Origin: Sinomonas atrocyanea
GTDB lineage: Bacteria > Actinomycetota > Actinomycetes > Actinomycetales > Micrococcaceae
NCBI RefSeq assembly: GCF_030812675.1
Contig: NZ_JAUSTE010000001.1
Coordinates: forward strand, 558,001 to 622,000
Direction of reading: 5' to 3'
DNA length: 64,000 bases
Both the position numbers and the translations under genes were made by a program. The notes beneath the pieces were generated by a model. The model was not told the origin of the DNA, did not search any database, and saw only the letters and a program-made list of their open reading frames with translations. Below, in pieces: positions 21,979-64,000 of the stretch; the first letter of the stretch is position 1; each line of letters opens with the position of its first letter.

Positions 21979-22818
21979 TCAGGCGGCCATGGTGCGGCGC
22001 ATGCGGTCCAGGAGCCGGCGCAGCAGGCGCGAGACCTGCATCTGCGACACCCCCAGCTCCGCGGCGATCTCGCTCTGGCTCATCTCGTCGAAGAACCGCA
22101 TCTTGACCAGGCGCCGCTCGTAGTCCGTCGCGCCCTCGAGGGCGGCGGCGACCATCTGGCGTTCCTCGACCTGCTCGAACCCTGGGTCGACCACGGGCAG
22201 GACGTGCACCGACCGCGCCTCGTCGTCCTCCGCAGAGGAGTCCAGGGACTCGATCGGCGCAGCCGCCATCGCAGCACCGAGGGTGCGCGCCTCCGCGGCC
22301 TGCTCCGGGCTGCACCCGGCCGCCTCGCCCAGCTCCGCCAGCGACGGCTCCCGGCCCAGCTCCTGCACCAGACGCCCCCGGGCCTCCTTCACCCCCAGCC
22401 GCAGCTCCTGCAGCGACCGCGGCGGACGCACCACCCACGACTGATCCCGCAGGTACCGCTTGATCGTCCCCGAGATCGTCGGCACCGCGAACTGCACGAA
22501 CCCGTGCCCGGCACCCTCCCGGTACCGCTGCGCCGCCATCACCAGCCCCAGCCGCGCCACCTGCCGCAGATCCTCGAAATCATGCCCCGGCACCCGATAC
22601 CGACGCGCCAAAGCATCCGCCAGCCCCAGATGCTCCACCACCAGAGCCCCCGCCCCAGCATCCACAGCGGCACCCGCGGCGCCCCCAGCAGAACCTGCAG
22701 CGCCAGCAGGAGCGCCGGCGGCAGCACCGCCGTCGGCCTCCACGCCCGGCTCCCCGGCCCGGCCCCCGGCCACGACCGCCAACCGGCTCTCCCGCTCCAT
22801 CACAGCTGACTCACTCAC
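21979..22818 (-). CDS. SigB/SigF-family sigma factor, copy 1
   Basis: A 279-residue alternative sigma factor. After a variable Gly/Ala-rich N-terminal stretch (residues 15-55) come region 2 (DALARRYRVPGHDFEDLRQVARLGL then VPTISGTIKRYLRDQSWVVRPPRSLQEL), region 3 and region 4 with its helix-turn-helix (MSQSEIAAELGVSQMQVSRLLRRLL). Such factors direct general-stress, envelope or sporulation-type regulons. No anti-sigma factor gene (RsbW type) lies next to it. A divergent TetR gene and two palindromic operators sit upstream. A second copy lies at 62611-63429. Confidence 0.9.
   Translation of the reverse strand: MSESAVMERESRLAVVAGGRAGEPGVEADGGAAAGAPAGAAGSAGGAAGAAVDAGAGALVVEHLGLADALARRYRVPGHDFEDLRQVARLGLVMAAQRYREGAGHGFVQFAVPTISGTIKRYLRDQSWVVRPPRSLQELRLGVKEARGRLVQELGREPSLAELGEAAGCSPEQAAEARTLGAAMAAAPIESLDSSAEDDEARSVHVLPVVDPGFEQVEERQMVAAALEGATDYERRLVKMRFFDEMSQSEIAAELGVSQMQVSRLLRRLLDRMRRTMAA
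22001..22661 (-). repeat. Sigma-gene DNA shared with 62638-63281
   Basis: Two blocks are almost identical at the DNA level to the second sigma gene: about 22001-22080 (region 4) and about 22381-22661 (regions 2 and 3). In the longer block only about three differences were counted by eye. The DNA between them (about 22090-22370) is clearly diverged. This mosaic pattern suggests gene conversion between paralogues. Confidence 0.7.
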
Positions 22819-22890
22819 AGCGACCTACCCTCCCTGCACCGCCAGGCGGTGCCCGGTGTTGATGCCGGCTACCTCGAAGTCTTCAACGAG

Positions 22891-22904
22891 ACAGACCTGT
22901 CTGT
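22891..22904. promoter_or_regulatory. TetR-type operator, distal copy, module 1
   Basis: ACAGACCTGTCTGT is an inverted repeat (ACAGAC-N2-GTCTGT) in the gap between the divergent sigma and TetR genes. Its twin starts 39 bases further on. It is 73 bases from the sigma start codon. Confidence 0.65.
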
Positions 22905-22929
22905 TCCGTCATGAGGAGTATGCACCGAG

Positions 22930-22943
22930 ACAGACCTGTCTGT
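22930..22943. promoter_or_regulatory. TetR-type operator, proximal copy, module 1
   Basis: A second exact ACAGACCTGTCTGT, placed where a -35 element for the TetR gene would lie, since a candidate TAGGAT -10 is at 22953-22958. This is consistent with autorepression by the TetR protein. Confidence 0.65.
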
Positions 22944-22964
22944 CCAGAGGGCTAGGATGGGCCC

Positions 22965-23633
22965 ATGATGGGTGGAGATGAGGGGCAGGCGGGCAGGGGT
23001 GCCGTGCGGAAGCCGGCCAAGGAGCGGATCCTGGAGACCGCCTACGGCCTCTTCGCGAGGGGTGGCGTCCGCGCCGTGGGGGTCGACGAGATCATCGCCC
23101 ATTCCGGGGTCGCCAAGGCGACGTTCTACCGGAACTTCCCCTCGAAGGACGCCCTCGTGCTGGCCTACATGGACCGCTGGTACCAGGTGCGCCACGACGC
23201 CATTGAGGACGCGATCGCGCACGCCCACGCCCCCGATGACGCACTTCTGGCGGCCTTCAACGTCCTCGACGACTGGTTCAGCCGCGGCGCGGCCGAGGTC
23301 AACACCTTCCTCCACGTGGTGATCGAGTTCGGTCCGGACCATCCCCTCGGTCAGGCCGCCATGGCGCACCTGGCGAACATCCGCGGGCGCCTCGCCGCAC
23401 TGGCCGAGGGTGCGGGCCTGAGCGACCCCGACGGCTTCGCCTGGTCCTTCCACATCCTCACCAAGGGCGCCATGGTCGCCTCCATCGAAGGGGACCAGCG
23501 CGCCGCCCTCCGCGCCCGGGCCCTCGCGCGGGCCCTCATCGACCTCCACCGCCCCGACACGCCCGGGCGACCGCAATCACAGCAGGAAGAAGACGACGAG
23601 GTCGAGGTCCTTCGGAAGCGCGGCCGAGACTGA
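22965..23633 (+). CDS. TetR family regulator, copy 1
   Basis: A 222-residue repressor-type protein. The N-terminal helix-turn-helix is typical (RILETAYGLFARGGVRAVGVDEIIAHSGVAKATFYRNFPSKD, residues 19-60) and the rest is a helical ligand-binding domain that includes DDWFSRGAAEVNTFLHVVIE. TANNNT (TAGGAT) ends six bases before the first ATG, so the mRNA may be leaderless. It is divergent from the sigma factor, and the two palindromes between them are its probable operators. A close homologue lies at 63578. The inducer is unknown. The C-terminal 25 residues are highly polar. Confidence 0.88.
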   Translation: MMGGDEGQAGRGAVRKPAKERILETAYGLFARGGVRAVGVDEIIAHSGVAKATFYRNFPSKDALVLAYMDRWYQVRHDAIEDAIAHAHAPDDALLAAFNVLDDWFSRGAAEVNTFLHVVIEFGPDHPLGQAAMAHLANIRGRLAALAEGAGLSDPDGFAWSFHILTKGAMVASIEGDQRAALRARALARALIDLHRPDTPGRPQSQQEEDDEVEVLRKRGRD

Positions 23634-23712
23634 GGGCTCACCCCTCCTGGGAGGCCTCGCTGACCTGAACGGCAACCCAAGGTTCGGCATGTATCATGAC
23701 CGCGCAAGGTGC

Positions 23713-23876
23713 CGTTCGTTAGCTGAGGCTCCTTCGCGGACACAAGCCAGCGACCCCCAACGTCGAGAGACGCCACAGGTCAGGACAGGCTGCCCCGGGC
23801 TAAGGGGCAACCCCGATTGGCTCCCCGGGTCCTCCCCGGGGTCACGACGCGAAGTGCCAAAGGTCTTACGAGGAAG
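23713..23876 (+). ncRNA. M-box magnesium riboswitch (ykoK leader)
   Basis: The stretch matches the M-box aptamer consensus in order: TTCGTTAGCTGAGGCTCC at 23715, GGACACAAGCC, GTCGAGAGACGCC and the closing AAGTGCCAAAGG...TTACGAGGAAGG. M-boxes sense Mg2+ and lower expression of Mg2+ transporters when it is plentiful. A CGGCC/GGCCG hairpin at 23881-23897 follows the aptamer and may be part of the switch. The gene downstream is an Nramp-related transporter, so the leader predicts Mg2+ rather than Mn2+ control. Confidence 0.85.
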
Positions 23877-23940
23877 GGCCCGGCCTCTCTGGCCGGCCGT
23901 CTGAAGGCACGCGAACTGCGTCCGGAGGAGGTGGCCCGCC

Positions 23941-23982
23941 GTGTCCAGCGGTGACAGTAGTCCCTCCCCGCATACCTGCTGA
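23941..23982 (+). CDS. Possible 13-residue leader peptide after the M-box
   Basis: A GTG with GGAGGAGG nine bases upstream opens a frame for VSSGDSSPSPHTC and stops at 23980-23982, 130 bases before the transporter start and out of its frame. Pro/Asp-containing leader peptides tune some Mg2+ transporter genes, so it could be regulatory. It could also be chance. Confidence 0.3.
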   Translation: MSSGDSSPSPHTC

Positions 23983-24112
23983 GCCGCGCTCAGCCCCTCC
24001 GCCAACGCCGCGCGCCCACGCCGCGGCCGCGCTGACCCCAGCCCGGCCCGGCGTGCCCGGACGCGCCCGCTTCACGATCCCCGGCCACCGCCGGGAGGAA
24101 GCAGGTCCTCCC

Positions 24113-25804
24113 ATGCCCAAGACCCCCATGCCCACCGCCCCCACGCCCGAGGTCCCCACGCCGGGCGTCCCCTCGTCCAAGGACTCGGCGGTCCTCGACT
24201 CCGCCCACGTCGGCGACATCCAGGGCGCCTTCGGCACCATCCGCCTGGGCGATTCCTCGTCGCAGTCGAGTTGGAAGCGGCGCCTGAAGACGCTGCTGGC
24301 CATCGTGGGACCCGGCCTGATCGTGATGGTCGGCGACAACGACGCCGGCGCGTTCGGCACCTACACCCAGGCCGGCCAGAACTACGGCACGTCCCTCCTG
24401 TGGACCCTCCTGCTGCTGGTCCCGGTCCTGTACGTGAACCAGGAGATGGTGCTGCGCCTCGGCGTGGTCACCGGCGTGGGGCACGCCCGCCTCATCCTCG
24501 AGCGGTTCGGGAAGTTCTGGGGCGCCTTCAGCGCGATCGACCTGTTCATCCTCAACGCCCTCACCATCGTCACCGAGTTCATCGGCATCTCGATCGGCCT
24601 CGACTACCTCGGCGTGCCCAAGATCCCGGGCGTGCTGATCTCCGCGCTGTTCGTGATCGGCGCGGCCAGCACGGGCTCGTTCCAGCGCTTCGAGCGGGTC
24701 TGCATGGCCCTCGTGGCCGGCTCGCTCCTGCTCGTGCCGGTCTTCTTCCTGGCCGGCCCGGACTACGGGCAGATGGCGCACGACTTCGTGGTGCCCGGCA
24801 TCCCGGCCGGCTCCGACATCGCCGACGTCACGCTGCTCGTCATCGCGATCGTGGGCACCACCATCGCCCCGTGGCAGCTGTTCTTCCAGCAGTCCTACGT
24901 GATCGACAAGCGCATCACCCCGCGCTACATGAAGTACGAGCGGGTGGACCTCTGGCTCGGGATCGTGATCGTGGTGCTCGGCGCCGCAGCGATCATCGGC
25001 TTCACCGCCGCCACGTTCGCTCACCGGCCCGAGTTCGGCCACTTCACCGACGCCGGCGGCGTGGCGGAGGGCCTGGGCACGCACGTGGGCCACCTTGCCG
25101 GGATCCTGTTCGCGCTCGCCCTCATCGACGCCTCGATCATCGGCGCGGCCGCCGTGGGCCTCTCCACCTCCTACGCGCTCGGCGACGTCCTCGGCCTCAA
25201 GCACTCCCTGCACCGCAAGGTCTCCGACGCGAAGGGCTTCTACGCCGCCTTCGCCGGGATCATCGCCCTCTCGGCCGTGATCGTCATCATCCCGGGAAGC
25301 CCGCTGGGCCTGCTCACGGTGGGCGTGCAGGTCCTTGCCGGGGTGCTGCTGCCCTCGGCCACGGTGTTCCTGCTCCTGCTCTGCAACGACAAGGAGGTCA
25401 TGGGTCCCTGGGTCAACGGGCGCGGGATGAACATCTTCACCTCCGCGGTCATCGCCGTCCTCGTGATCCTCTCCGTGGTGCTCACCGCCGCCGTGCTGTT
25501 CCCGGACATCAGCGGCACCGCGATCCTGGCGATCCTCGGCGGCGGGGCACTCGTTGCCCTGCTCGCGGCGGCAGGGCTCGCCGTCGTGCGCCTCCGCACC
25601 GCGGCGAGCGGGAAGGCGGCCTCCGCCGCGCCCGTGGACCGCTCCCAGCGGGCCACGTGGCGAATGCCGCCGCTGGCGCTGCTGCAGCGGCCGCAGCTCT
25701 CCGCGGCCCGGCGGGCGGGGCTGGGCGTGCTGCGCCTGTACCTGCTCGTGGCGATGATCCTCGTGATCGTCCGCGTGGTCCAGCTCGCCCTCGCCGGCGC
25801 CTGA
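24113..25804 (+). CDS. Nramp-related divalent metal transporter, probably Mg2+
   Basis: A 563-residue membrane protein with about 11 helices after a Pro-rich, polar N-terminus of 55 residues. It belongs to the SLC11/Nramp superfamily, but helix 1 reads GDNDAGAFGTYTQAG (residues 74-88) instead of the canonical DPGN, and helix 6 reads TTIAPWQLFFQQS without the metal-selective methionine of classical Nramps. Loss of that methionine is known for Nramp-related Mg2+ transporters. The M-box upstream and the MgtE-N/CBS gene downstream support Mg2+ uptake. The ATG at 24113 follows GGGAGGAAG at a rather long spacing. Confidence 0.85.
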   Translation: MPKTPMPTAPTPEVPTPGVPSSKDSAVLDSAHVGDIQGAFGTIRLGDSSSQSSWKRRLKTLLAIVGPGLIVMVGDNDAGAFGTYTQAGQNYGTSLLWTLLLLVPVLYVNQEMVLRLGVVTGVGHARLILERFGKFWGAFSAIDLFILNALTIVTEFIGISIGLDYLGVPKIPGVLISALFVIGAASTGSFQRFERVCMALVAGSLLLVPVFFLAGPDYGQMAHDFVVPGIPAGSDIADVTLLVIAIVGTTIAPWQLFFQQSYVIDKRITPRYMKYERVDLWLGIVIVVLGAAAIIGFTAATFAHRPEFGHFTDAGGVAEGLGTHVGHLAGILFALALIDASIIGAAAVGLSTSYALGDVLGLKHSLHRKVSDAKGFYAAFAGIIALSAVIVIIPGSPLGLLTVGVQVLAGVLLPSATVFLLLLCNDKEVMGPWVNGRGMNIFTSAVIAVLVILSVVLTAAVLFPDISGTAILAILGGGALVALLAAAGLAVVRLRTAASGKAASAAPVDRSQRATWRMPPLALLQRPQLSAARRAGLGVLRLYLLVAMILVIVRVVQLALAGA

Positions 25805-31074: not shown

Positions 31075-33972
31075 TCAGCCGTCCTCGTGGCTCGTCGAGC
31101 CGGCGGGGATGCCCGGCACGTCGTTCGGACCGTAGACCTTGGCGTCGCCCGGGTACGGGCTCGTCCAGTGGTGGGCCTGGTACCAGGTCCAGCGGTTGAA
31201 CAGGTACGGGTTCGCGAAGTCCTCCTTCGCACCGTTGCCGGTCAGGTGCTGCTGCTCCCCCCACGTGTCCCACTGCTCCGCGATGTCCTGCATCGACGGC
31301 GGGACGGCCGCCGCCTGGGCCGCGGCGCTGTTCACCCCAGCGGCTGCGGCGCCGGTCTTGCCCAGGGTGTCCGTGCCGCAGGCCGGGGCGGTCTTGACGC
31401 CCTCGGTCAGGGGCACCTGGTTGGGGACCGCGCTGTACGGGGTCAGGTCCGGCTTGTCGGTGAAGGCGTCGAACATCGGCGTGGCGGCCGCGACCTTCTG
31501 GTTCAGCGGCTGGGCCCCGAGGATCTGCTGGATGGTGCGGACCATGTTGATCTGCGAGTAGAACGTGCTGACGGTCTTGCCGTGGACGGCGTACGGGCTG
31601 ATGACCTGGACCGGGGCGCGGTGGCCGTCCACGTGGTCGGCGCCGTCCTGGCTGTCGTCCTCGGCGATGAAGATCGCGGAGTCCTTCCAGTACTGCGAGT
31701 GCGAGATCTCGTCGACGATCTTGCCCACCGCGAGGTCGTTGTCCGCGACCTGGGCCTCGGGGTCGACCGTGCCGCCCGTGTGGTCGCTGGAGAGCCAGGT
31801 CATCTGGAAGTTCTTCGGGCCGTTCTTCTCGAAGTCCTGCTTCCAGGTCGCGTACCGGTAGATGTCCGGCACGGCGGTGTCGAACGGTGCCGCGTTGGGG
31901 TCGGCGATCGCGTTCAGCGAGGGAATGGCCGAGCTGGCGTGCATCTGGAGTGCCGGCGTGAACAGCTGCGCCGGATCGCCGCCGGCCATGGTGCTCGTCG
32001 CCGCGCAGTAGTAGTCCTGCCAGGTCGCCCCGGCGGGCTTGCCTTCGCCGTACTCGAACTCGCCGTAGTTGCGGGCGGTATTCCCTGCCGCCTGGATCGA
32101 GGTCCAGAGGAATCCGGTGCGCTGGTGGCCCAGGACGTCCTCCTCGGTGTCGTAGGAGCGCTTGTACTCGCCGGCGCTGGTCTCGCTGTAGGCAGGGTTG
32201 TCGCCCTGCATCATCCAGTTGTGCCCCTCGGCGGAGTTGGTGCCGATGTCATAGGTGTTGTCGTAGAGGCCGAACTGCGTGGCGAGGGCGTGCTGGTTCG
32301 GGGTCACCTTAGCGCCGAACTGCGCCAGCGACGGGTCTCCGTTGCCCTGCTTCATGTCGCCGTAGACCTGGTCGTAGGTGCGGTTCTCCTTGACGATCAG
32401 GAAGACGTGCTTGATGGCCGAGGGGTCCCCGATCCGCCGGGGCACCGCCACCGCGGGGACCTTGGCCGCATCCGCGGCGACCGACTGCTTGACCGAGGCG
32501 GCGTCCCAGCCGTTCTGCTGGAACACGGTCTCCGTGTACTTGCGGATCTGGTCATCGCCCGGGAGCGCGAACCTGGTCAGCGACGCGGTCGTGGAGTGGG
32601 TCCCGTGGCCGGTGGCCGGCGATGTGCCCGGGCCCTTGCTGAAGCTCAGCTCCGGGCCGCGGGCGTCGATGCCGCGGATGTTGGTGACGACGATCTGGCC
32701 GCCCACCGCCGTGACGTTGCCCGGGTAGTAGTCGGTGGGCAGGAGGCCGATGTAACTGGCCGGGTCCCGCGGGTCCTTCCGGTTGACCTTGTAGACGGCG
32801 ACCGCGTTCGCGCGGCCCAGCGAAACCAGCAGGTGGTCCCCCTGCATGGTGATGCCGGTGGGCTCGTAGCCGGCCTGCGAGGAGGCCCACGGCTGGGTCG
32901 CAATGGTCTGCACGACCTTGTTGCCCGCCGTGTCCACGACCGAGACCGTGTCGCTGTTGGTGTTCGCGACGTACAGGGTGGAGCCGTCCAGGTGCATCGC
33001 GGTGGGGTGGAGCTGGACGTCGACCGAGGACGGCGCGGCTGCGGCGTTGGCGGTGTCGATGACGCTGAGCGTTCCGGTGGTGGAGGTGCCGAGCGTCGTG
33101 TCCGCCGGGACCTGTGTGCCGTAGGAGCCCATGGTGGCCTCGCCGGCGGCCGCCTGGCGGCCTCCCTCGTTGGAGACGTACAGCTTGGTGCCTGCGAAGG
33201 CCAGCTGGCGCGGGGCGATGCCGGTGGGGAAGGTCTGCTTGACGGTACCGCTGGCGGGGTCGATGGCCACGACCGTGTTCTGGCCGTTCACGGCGGCGTA
33301 CAGCGTGGCGCCGTCGGGCGAGAAGGCCATGCCAGCCGTCAGCGCCTGCTTGCCGCCCACCGTGGGGATGCTGATCTTCGTGCCGGCCCCGAGCGAGCCG
33401 TCCGCGTTGAATGGGTACCGGACCAGCCCCGTGGCGACGGGAGCGTAGAGGAACTTGCCGTCGGGCGAGAACACGGGGCCCTCCTGCCCCACTGAACCGT
33501 CTGTGATCTGCTGGTAGGCCATCCCCCCGTAGCCCGCGTCGGCGGCCGCTGCGGCGAACGAGGTGGCGGCGAGCGTTCCCGCGGCGGCCACGGGCTTGTA
33601 GGCCTTGAGGTCGAAGACCTGCAGGGCGACGGACCGGTCGGCGCTCGTGCCGACCAGGTAGCGGCCGTCGGGGCTGACCGTCGAGCCCATGATCTTGCCG
33701 AAGGGCGTCATCAGACGGTCGCCGATGGGCTTGATGACCTGGTTCGACGCGATCTGCTCGCCGTTCTCGTACTGGGAGCCGACCTGATGCTGCCCGAACT
33801 CGAGGGTCGAGGCTGCGGCGATTCCGCCGCCCACGAGGACGAGCGCGCAGCTGGCGGCCGCGATCGAGAGCGGCGTCCGGCTGCGGACGCACCTCGAGAG
33901 CCGACGCAGGGCGCCCGCACGCGGCGGCGCCGGGTGCGGCGGTCGTGAGGCGGACGGTGACGGTGCGGCCAT
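31075..33972 (-). CDS. Secreted beta-propeller phosphoesterase
   Basis: A 965-residue exported protein. An N-terminal membrane helix (TPLSIAAASCALVLVGGGIAA) is followed by a YncE-like beta-propeller (residues 70-430) with repeated FSPDG and VIDTAN units, then a phosphoesterase domain of the phospholipase C/acid phosphatase family beginning at VFLIVKENRTYDQVYGDM and continuing with SAEGHNWMMQGD and FIAEDDSQDGADHVDGHR. It should act outside the membrane on phosphate esters, for example in phosphate scavenging. The ATG at 33972 has AGAGGAG upstream. Confidence 0.87.
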   Translation of the reverse strand: MAAPSPSASRPPHPAPPRAGALRRLSRCVRSRTPLSIAAASCALVLVGGGIAAASTLEFGQHQVGSQYENGEQIASNQVIKPIGDRLMTPFGKIMGSTVSPDGRYLVGTSADRSVALQVFDLKAYKPVAAAGTLAATSFAAAAADAGYGGMAYQQITDGSVGQEGPVFSPDGKFLYAPVATGLVRYPFNADGSLGAGTKISIPTVGGKQALTAGMAFSPDGATLYAAVNGQNTVVAIDPASGTVKQTFPTGIAPRQLAFAGTKLYVSNEGGRQAAAGEATMGSYGTQVPADTTLGTSTTGTLSVIDTANAAAAPSSVDVQLHPTAMHLDGSTLYVANTNSDTVSVVDTAGNKVVQTIATQPWASSQAGYEPTGITMQGDHLLVSLGRANAVAVYKVNRKDPRDPASYIGLLPTDYYPGNVTAVGGQIVVTNIRGIDARGPELSFSKGPGTSPATGHGTHSTTASLTRFALPGDDQIRKYTETVFQQNGWDAASVKQSVAADAAKVPAVAVPRRIGDPSAIKHVFLIVKENRTYDQVYGDMKQGNGDPSLAQFGAKVTPNQHALATQFGLYDNTYDIGTNSAEGHNWMMQGDNPAYSETSAGEYKRSYDTEEDVLGHQRTGFLWTSIQAAGNTARNYGEFEYGEGKPAGATWQDYYCAATSTMAGGDPAQLFTPALQMHASSAIPSLNAIADPNAAPFDTAVPDIYRYATWKQDFEKNGPKNFQMTWLSSDHTGGTVDPEAQVADNDLAVGKIVDEISHSQYWKDSAIFIAEDDSQDGADHVDGHRAPVQVISPYAVHGKTVSTFYSQINMVRTIQQILGAQPLNQKVAAATPMFDAFTDKPDLTPYSAVPNQVPLTEGVKTAPACGTDTLGKTGAAAAGVNSAAAQAAAVPPSMQDIAEQWDTWGEQQHLTGNGAKEDFANPYLFNRWTWYQAHHWTSPYPGDAKVYGPNDVPGIPAGSTSHEDG

Positions 33973-62610: not shown

Positions 62611-63429
62611 TCAGGCGGCCATCTTGCGGCGCATGCGGTCCAGGAGCCGGCGCAGCAGGCGCGAGACCTGCATCTGGGACACCCCCAGCTCCGCGGCGAT
62701 CTCCGACTGGCTCATCTCCTCCACGAACCGGAGCCGCACCAGCCGCCGCTCCTGCTCGCTCGCCCCCTCCAGCGCGCACGCGACCATCTGCCGCAGCTCC
62801 ACCTGCTCGAACCCCGCATCGACCACCGGCACCAGATGCGCCGTCCGCTCCCCCTCCGCATCCGAGGACGCATCCAGCGGCTCGATCGCCACCGCCGTCA
62901 TCGCCGACTCCACCGACCGCGCCTCCGCGACCTGCTCGGCCGTGGCGCCGGTCGCCTCGGCCAGCTCTCCCAGCGACGGCTCCCGGCCCAGCTCCTGCAC
63001 CAGCCGCCCCCGGGCCTCCTTCACCCCCAGCCGCAGCTCCTGCAGCGACCGCGGCGGACGCACCACCCACGACTGGTCCCGCAGGTACCGCTTGATCGTC
63101 CCCGAGATCGTCGGCACCGCGAACTGCACGAACCCGTGCCCGGCACCCTCCCGGTACCGCTGCGCCGCCATCACCAGCCCCAGCCGCGCCACCTGCCGCA
63201 GATCCTCGAAATCATGCCCCGGCACCCGGAACCGACGCGCCAAAGCATCCGCCAGCCCCAGATGCTCCACCACCAGAGCCCCCGCCCTGGCATCCACGGC
63301 GGCACCCGCAGCAGAACCGGCACCGCCAGCAGAAGCGCCGGCGGCAGCACCGCCGTCGGCCTCCACACCAGGCTCCCCGGCGACGACCGCCAACCGGCTC
63401 TCCCGCTCCATCACAGCTGACTCGCCCAC
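62611..63429 (-). CDS. SigB/SigF-family sigma factor, copy 2
   Basis: A 272-residue sigma factor with the same plan as copy 1: variable Ala/Gly-rich N-terminus, region 2 ending VVRPPRSLQEL, region 3 and a region 4 helix-turn-helix (SEIAAELGVSQMQVSRLLRRLL). DNA for regions 2 and 3 and the end of region 4 is nearly identical to copy 1, while the segment encoding SATGATAEQVAEARSVESAM is diverged. Two operators and a divergent TetR gene follow the same layout. No anti-sigma gene is adjacent. Confidence 0.9.
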   Translation of the reverse strand: MGESAVMERESRLAVVAGEPGVEADGGAAAGASAGGAGSAAGAAVDARAGALVVEHLGLADALARRFRVPGHDFEDLRQVARLGLVMAAQRYREGAGHGFVQFAVPTISGTIKRYLRDQSWVVRPPRSLQELRLGVKEARGRLVQELGREPSLGELAEATGATAEQVAEARSVESAMTAVAIEPLDASSDAEGERTAHLVPVVDAGFEQVELRQMVACALEGASEQERRLVRLRFVEEMSQSEIAAELGVSQMQVSRLLRRLLDRMRRKMAA

Positions 63430-63502: not shown

Positions 63503-63516
63503 ACAGACCTGTCTGT
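63503..63516. promoter_or_regulatory. TetR-type operator, distal copy, module 2
   Basis: ACAGACCTGTCTGT, identical to the two sites of module 1, 74 bases from the sigma start codon. Confidence 0.65.
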
Positions 63517-63541
63517 TCCGTCTGAGACGTATATATATGAG

Positions 63542-63555
63542 ACAGACCAGTCTGT
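63542..63555. promoter_or_regulatory. TetR-type operator, proximal copy, module 2
   Basis: ACAGACCAGTCTGT differs from the other three sites only at the central two bases. It starts 39 bases after its twin, as in module 1. A candidate TACGAT -10 lies at 63565-63570. A TATATATA run lies between the two sites. Confidence 0.65.
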
Positions 63556-63577
63556 CTACCGTGCTACGATCCTGATC

Positions 63578-64000
63578 ATGGTCGGTCCTACTGACGGCCG
63601 GGCCCCCGAGGCCGCGGCACGCAAACCTGCCCGAGAACGGATCCTTGAGACCGCCTACGGGCTCTTCGCCAGACGCGGCATACGAGACGTCGGCGTCGAC
63701 GAGATCATCGCCCATTCCGGGGTCGCCAAGGCGACGTTCTACCGGCACTTCCCCTCGAAGGAAGCCCTCGTGCTCGCCTACATGGACCGCTGGTACCAAG
63801 TGCGCGAAGACGCGATCGAGGAGGCCATCGCCCACGCGCACAATCCCGACGACGCGATCCTGGCGGCGTTCACGGTGCTGGACGACTGGTTCAGCCGAGG
63901 CGCGGCCGAGGTCAACACGTTCCTCCACGTGGTGATCGAGTTCGGGCCGGGCCACCTTGTCGGCCGGGCGGCGATGAGGCACCTTACCGACATCCGCGAG
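63578..64000 (+). CDS. TetR family regulator, copy 2, 3' end outside the window
   Basis: The first 141 codons of a TetR repressor. The helix-turn-helix (GVDEIIAHSGVAKATFYRHFPSKE) and the ligand-domain segment DDWFSRGAAEVNTFLHVVIEFG are very similar to copy 1 at 22965, with scattered substitutions. TACGAT ends seven bases before the ATG, so the message may be leaderless. Divergent from sigma copy 2 across two operators. The reading frame is open at the window edge. Confidence 0.87.
   Translation, partial: MVGPTDGRAPEAAARKPARERILETAYGLFARRGIRDVGVDEIIAHSGVAKATFYRHFPSKEALVLAYMDRWYQVREDAIEEAIAHAHNPDDAILAAFTVLDDWFSRGAAEVNTFLHVVIEFGPGHLVGRAAMRHLTDIRE

Follow-up and report, generated by a model that had tools for sequence, protein, structure and literature searches.

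Paired TetR-type operators at promoter-like elements ahead of SigB/SigF/SigG-type sigma factor genes in Sinomonas

Genomes of Sinomonas, a soil bacterium, carry a recurring module in which a stress-type sigma factor gene (SigB/SigF/SigG type) and a divergent TetR-family regulator gene are separated by a short gap holding two nearly identical palindromes. The operator pair was present in all 23 sigma/TetR modules examined, drawn from 14 of 15 Sinomonas genomes (each site with at most two mismatches; sigma-TetR adjacency was labelled by hand). We think it likely, from the layout of the sequences, that TetR represses both the sigma gene and its own gene, each module acting as a ligand-responsive switch in which operator spacing follows promoter geometry. 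Conserved sites, a promoter-like geometry, recurrence of the module and mosaic relationships among its copies all emerge from computation; TetR binding, repression, release by a ligand, freedom from post-translational control and a leaderless tetR mRNA are predictions.

Two modules in the window and their copies in the genome

The window, meaning the whole stretch of Sinomonas atrocyanea DNA analyzed (64,000 nucleotides), contains two modules, M1 and M2, with the following features.

21979-22818, minus strand: M1 SigB/SigF/SigG-type sigma factor gene, 279 aa, GTG start (ORF and profile matches)
22891-22904, no strand: M1 distal operator, ACAGACCTGTCTGT, immediately past the predicted sigma -10 (pattern match)
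22917-22922, minus strand: M1 predicted sigma -10, CATACT (consensus scan; prediction only)
22930-22943, no strand: M1 proximal operator, ACAGACCTGTCTGT, sharing bases with the predicted sigma -35; the possible tetR -10 lies downstream of it
22941-22946, minus strand: M1 predicted sigma -35, TGGACA, spacer 18 (consensus scan)
22953-22958, plus strand: M1 possible tetR -10, TAGGAT, 6 bp before the ATG (read from sequence)
22965-23633, plus strand: M1 TetR-family regulator gene, 222 aa (ORF and profile matches)
62611-63429, minus strand: M2 SigB/SigF/SigG-type sigma factor gene, 272 aa (ORF and profile matches)
63503-63516, no strand: M2 distal operator, ACAGACCTGTCTGT (pattern match)
63529-63535, minus strand: M2 predicted sigma -10 region in TATATATAC, exact hexamer ambiguous, spacer 17-19
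63542-63555, no strand: M2 proximal operator, ACAGACCAGTCTGT (pattern match)
63553-63558, minus strand: M2 predicted sigma -35, TAGACA (read from sequence geometry)
63565-63570, plus strand: M2 possible tetR -10, TACGAT, 7 bp before the ATG (read from sequence)
63578-64000, plus strand, cut by the window end: M2 TetR-family regulator gene, 225 aa in the genome (ORF and profile matches)

Perfect ACAGACNNGTCTGT sites start at 22891, 22930, 63503 and 63542 on the plus strand, 39 bp apart in each pair, and the ACAGAC-N2-GTCTGT palindromes are exact in both sigma/TetR gaps, just as a sequence-only reading of this DNA had described them. The M1 gap, 22819-22964, exactly fills the space between its two open reading frames. 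A single further window match with at most two mismatches to the operator occurs, at 33491, and five or more matches at that tolerance appeared in 2 of 100 window shuffles.

Open reading frames and profile matches agree that each gap separates a SigB/SigF-type sigma gene from a divergent TetR gene, as had been claimed. Sigma regions 2, 3 and 4 are present in both window copies (PF04542, PF04539 and PF04545, above cut-offs). The best NCBIfam model for the M1 and M2 sigma proteins is TIGR02980, with 202.8 and 203.9 bits; these scores fall below the curated cut-off of 234.35, and the genes are therefore filed only as SigB/F/G-type. Both TetR proteins match the TetR_N DNA-binding domain, PF00440, at 55.3 and 61.3 bits against a cut-off of 24, the second as a copy cut by the window. 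A second TetR gene (L009 6880-7560, plus strand), 42% identical to the M1 TetR, lies just past the window end and directly 3' of the M2 TetR gene, with tandem counterparts in genomes G162 and G104. Elsewhere in the window, an M-box riboswitch (RF00380, 107.7 bits) at 23708-23882 on the plus strand stands upstream of an ORF (23951-25804) for an Nramp transporter.

Searched for the pattern, the whole 4.12-Mb genome yielded five operator pairs, spaced 39, 39, 40, 39 and 39 bp, and one further perfect single site. Five sigma paralogues stand at the five pairs, the other four being 78-86% identical to M1, and a TetR paralogue adjoins four of the five. The fifth copy, at C13:60124, has no TetR match beside its sigma gene and keeps both the operator pair and the promoter; a short stretch in the TetR place resembles, by eye, the start of tetR, and a LuxR-type regulator gene lies upstream on the sigma strand. 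Near this TetR-less copy is a sigma-like fragment (C13:61293-61538; 46% over 82 residues) with two stops in the open frame.

The copies have not evolved separately throughout their length. At the nucleotide level the two window sigma genes are 86% identical and their gaps 80% identical. Identity among the sigma genes of M2, M3 and M4 stays at 85-100% across all 20-codon windows, and at 93-100% beginning with alignment codon 60; M1 compared with these three shows 87-100% to alignment codon 160, 65-87% across codons 160-260, and 95-97% in the last window. Agreement within the stretches shared among M1-M4 extends to most synonymous positions. Gene conversion is the best, and a probable, explanation of this mosaic, which rules out the use of the two window modules, which had been called diverged, as independent witnesses. 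Their equal spacing is probably due mostly to common descent, with probable gene conversion among paralogues added. Given the mosaic, and given that one inter-operator sequence is common to the pairs at C13:60124 and C1:580891, the equal spacing in the window is weak evidence for selection on spacing. The same two observations, near-identity in mosaic fashion and a shared inter-operator sequence, favor a further reading in which identical spacing is a mere relic of recent duplication and gene conversion and the second operator has no function, but pairs with diverged inter-operator sequences persist across the genus (27 distinct sequences among the 31 pairs described below), and we regard a functionless second operator as very improbable.

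Operator spacing and promoter-like geometry across Sinomonas

A search for the exact pair pattern (gap 10-40) across 295 genomes of the family matched 25 times, in 12 genomes of a single genus, against no match for a reversed-pattern control, so the pair is commoner than chance would give. The Sinomonas sample comprised 15 genomes, from which we took the upstream DNA of 33 of 70 TetR matches (mostly the closest) together with that of the TetR-less copy. ORFs in the fetched loci were picked by a simple greedy script that missed some genes, the sigma gene of L006 for example. The ten TetR genes outside the 23 modules comprise two at a contig edge with a pair, four with a pair and no full sigma match, and four with a single site; G121:C1:3528562 and 3529338, where a TetR match stands beside a partial sigma match, also lie outside the 23-module count.

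Counting neighboring sites 35-48 bp apart as pairs gave 31 of them in 14 Sinomonas genomes and left out three spacings seen in three-site gaps, 34 bp once and 58 bp twice. Spacing ranges from 36 to 46 bp, with 39 bp in fourteen pairs, 40 in seven, 38 in five, 46 in two, and 36, 37 and 43 in one each. Orthologues of M1, identified by synteny, are spaced 39, 39 and 36 bp; those of M2 are spaced 39 and 40 bp by synteny, and 38 bp in a G104 copy grouped by the TetR tree (read without row G104_C12_39). Spacing thus shifts by up to 3 bp between orthologues.

The sequence-only reading had taken the shared 39-bp spacing as a sign that spacing itself is selected, with two TetR dimers binding cooperatively, or looping the DNA, at a fixed helical phase. 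Two observations favor this: a spacing of 39 or 40 bp in 21 of the 31 pairs, and the retention of both operators in species where TetR identity is about 60%. The proposal had also counted 39 bases as close to four helical turns, but with 10.5 bp to a turn the spacing makes 3.7 turns, and the spacings of 36, 37, 38, 43 and 46 bp cover most of a turn, so that we reject helical phasing at exactly 39 bp. Random draws of two pairs out of the 31 give equal spacings 26% of the time, and pairs in other taxa are spaced otherwise, from 24 to 53 bp and most often 26 among the matches listed. Extending the search for the palindromes to sigma genes of relatives, as had been suggested, thus upheld the pair and not its spacing. 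With the window copies probably linked by gene conversion, and with a feature inside the gap that varies less than the operator spacing does, a selected spacing appears unlikely.

That feature is a promoter-like element directed toward the sigma gene. The consensus scan picked up TGGACA-18-CATACT in M1; it reported none in the M2 gap, where the -10 within TATATATAC is ambiguous. Across the genus, T[A/G]GACA, read toward sigma, lies in the outer arm of the TetR-proximal operator in 30 of 31 pairs, and a -10-like hexamer (TATAAC, TATAAA, CATACT, TAGAAA and others) lies between the operators. The proximal operator therefore overlaps the predicted sigma promoter. The spacer between the two hexamers is 18 bp in 24 of 31 pairs and 17-20 bp in the rest, a count somewhat favored by taking the best -10 over spacers 14-23 with ties going toward 18. 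A test at a fixed spacer of 18 is independent of this choice: the mean -10 match was 3.89 of 6 over the 27 distinct sequences, while the largest mean at any spacer in base shuffles was 2.56 and none of 2000 shuffles reached 3.89, where the shuffle keeps base content only and the 27 sequences, coming from related modules, are not independent. Between the -10 and the distal operator lie 9-17 bp; the -35/-10 spacer is more constant than the operator spacing. Both 46-bp pairs fit the promoter poorly (spacer 20, 3-4 of 6 matches), and one of them sits in a three-operator gap whose other pair fits well.

Predicted control of the sigma genes and relation to described systems

TetR regulators commonly autorepress, which lends some appeal to a reading in which the operators serve tetR autorepression only, and a bystander sigma gene is transcribed from a separate promoter closer to its start. 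Such a reading also draws on 15 TetR loci from other Micrococcaceae genera, 12 of which have an operator-like site (at most two mismatches) within about 200 bp of the TetR gene, with no sigma match in the fetched flanks of any. In nearly all modules, however, the distal operator lies on the sigma side of the sigma-directed promoter-like element, and the copy with no TetR match retains both sites. Of 11 more distant sigma paralogues (L187 and L192-L201), five (L196-L200) also have operator-like sites upstream, with no TetR match in their 1.5-kb flanks. Pure autorepression is, in our judgment, about as improbable as a selected spacing, and slightly more so.

Joint repression of sigma and tetR, the reading we prefer, accommodates the geometry as follows. 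A TetR dimer on the proximal operator would cover the sigma -35 and sit at the -35 region of the divergent tetR promoter; another, bound to the distal operator immediately beyond the sigma -10, would block escape, giving a double blockade. A small-molecule ligand would presumably release TetR and turn on both sigma and tetR, the sigma factor being made without need for an adjacent anti-sigma factor and perhaps without post-translational control. The operator spacing of about 39 bp would then be the sum of the 18-bp -35/-10 spacer, the -10 itself and an initial stretch of 9-17 bp. On the other strand, the -10-like hexamer 6-7 bp before the ATG in the two window modules suggests that tetR mRNA may be leaderless. 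For the earlier claim that TetR controls the sigma gene, it is the transcriptional part that stands, as the most economical reading of paired TetR-type operators at a probable sigma promoter. Reporters could test such control directly, given the conserved promoter-like layout.

Alternative sigma factors of the SigB/SigF/SigG family are usually discussed as held by anti-sigma factors, through partner-switching control of the RsbW/RsbV type. The Sinomonas proteins resemble that family by profile, TIGR02980 being their best NCBIfam match, but they score under its cut-off and their modules have no PF13581 match nearby. The anti-sigma search covered the RsbW-type family PF13581 (HATPase_c_2) and gave no match less than 15 kb from any of the five modules, in line with the earlier remark that no RsbW-type gene adjoins either window copy, and the match nearest any module is at C13:43382-43648, versus a sigma gene at C13:59236. 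An unlinked anti-sigma factor is possible, because PF13581 proteins occur elsewhere in the genome (12 matches, 8 over cut-off).

TetR influence on sigma genes has precedents, demonstrated or predicted. Sigma genes of the ECF203 family lack an anti-sigma factor and may instead be under the TetR repressor that is conserved in their neighborhood (PMC8999054). In the Sinomonas modules, too, TetR adjoins a sigma gene that has no RsbW-type gene beside it, but the ECF203 family is ECF rather than SigB/F/G, and the available part of that source gives no operator or promoter architecture. A further literature search for ECF203 with TetR returned only the same paper. In Pseudomonas, the TetR-family protein PsrA binds a palindrome at the stress sigma gene rpoS and represses its own gene (PMC13104628). 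PsrA, however, activates rpoS, its site is TTCAAAC-N4-GTTTGAA, and the accessible text describes no divergent module with paired operators. Deletion of the TetR-family gene sp1418 in Saccharopolyspora pogona raised the sigF transcript, although the discussion of Sp1418 in the same paper gives the direction differently (PMC7011500). There, too, TetR influences a gene named like the SigB/SigF/SigG family, but the change in expression came with that of several developmental genes, and the portion available reports no operator at sigF and no sigF beside sp1418 (PMC7011500). In Mycobacterium tuberculosis the TetR repressor Rv0078 and its divergent target Rv0077c share a short gap where two dimers bind (PMC6016246); there, both dimers occupy one 21-bp operator and the target is not a sigma factor. 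Open-access full texts contained no paired-operator SigB/F/G-TetR module, an absence that is weak evidence there, and open-access literature gave nothing for the operator sequence; this much agrees with the earlier impression that the arrangement is not a described system. A multi-copy, paired-operator SigB/F/G version of TetR-sigma control would, as far as these searches reach, be new.

Across the four intact copies the TetR stretch GVAKATFYR[H/N]FPSK is nearly invariant, and this, with the near-identity of the operators, makes cross-regulation among the copies likely. More tentatively, and as a possibility we rate well below joint repression itself, the modules may form a shared-operator network in which several TetR sensors with nearly the same recognition helix control nearly interchangeable sigma genes, so that different ligands could feed one stress regulon in place of partner switching; a short sigma-fragment ORF, described next, might in that case be an RNA-polymerase-binding decoy. 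Several sigma copies under one-component repressors would, if true, be a natural case of transcription-level control replacing protein-level control of a sigma factor.

In three Sinomonas species (G135, G186 and G216) the sigma place is taken by an ORF of about 62 aa, preceded by an operator pair spaced 38-39 bp with one mismatch in one site.

L204 3307-3495, L205 ending about 2127, and L206 3395-3583, plus strand: ORF of about 62 aa (similarity to sigma; start codon checked in G135 and G216)

The encoded sequence (ELREVARLALAMAIRRYRE) resembles what we take to be sigma region 2.1/2.2. A Pfam search of two copies returned no family match. For codons 31-62, dN/dS estimates (NG86, on few codons) are about 0.07, 0.19 and 0.25; codons 2-30 give about 0.6-1.7. 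The second half thus looks to be under purifying selection, and the ORF may encode a sigma-derived microprotein.

Operators and sigma homologues beyond the module

A scan of bacteria at one genome per species found at least 115 pair loci; among the matches listed, a TetR homologue is present in 107 and a sigma homologue in 8, and these 8 are all from Sinomonas. The 116 neighboring pairs in these loci, 11 of them from Sinomonas, are spaced 24-53 bp, most often 26, among the matches listed, under a search pattern that allowed 24-54. In a class-wide sample the pair occurred in 3 of 394 genomes, our own included; in the two others the fetched flanks held a TetR gene but nothing matching sigma. Pairs of this operator are thus widespread at TetR loci, and in the samples searched Sinomonas alone was seen to use one on a sigma gene.

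Sigma-TetR pairing outside the genus was sought from both sides and is rejected for these samples: the 15 other-genus Micrococcaceae TetR loci mentioned above (a single locus per genome, in 15 of the 38 matching genomes from other genera) had no sigma match in the fetched flanks, seven other-genus sigma loci had a response regulator and no TetR match, and the sigma-bearing pairs among the matches listed are all from Sinomonas. The sigma homologues in question (L238-L244, 48-52%) belong to two other Micrococcaceae genera and have a LuxR-type response regulator gene close by, perhaps the older neighborhood.

In two close species a perfect single operator stands upstream of a LuxR-type response-regulator-like gene (L008 7921-7934 and L246 1443-1456). 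Membership of this gene in a regular regulon was considered and rejected, with a perfect single site upstream in only 2 of 13 loci (L245 and L246) and none such in the other 11 homologues; a third of the 13 loci, L257, has the pair of a neighboring sigma copy. The operator-like sites ahead of distant sigma paralogues (ACAGAACGTTCTGT, ACAGAACGGTCTGT) come from five genomes and are located at L196 1128, L197 1126, L198 1177, L199 1116, and L200 1297 and 1345.
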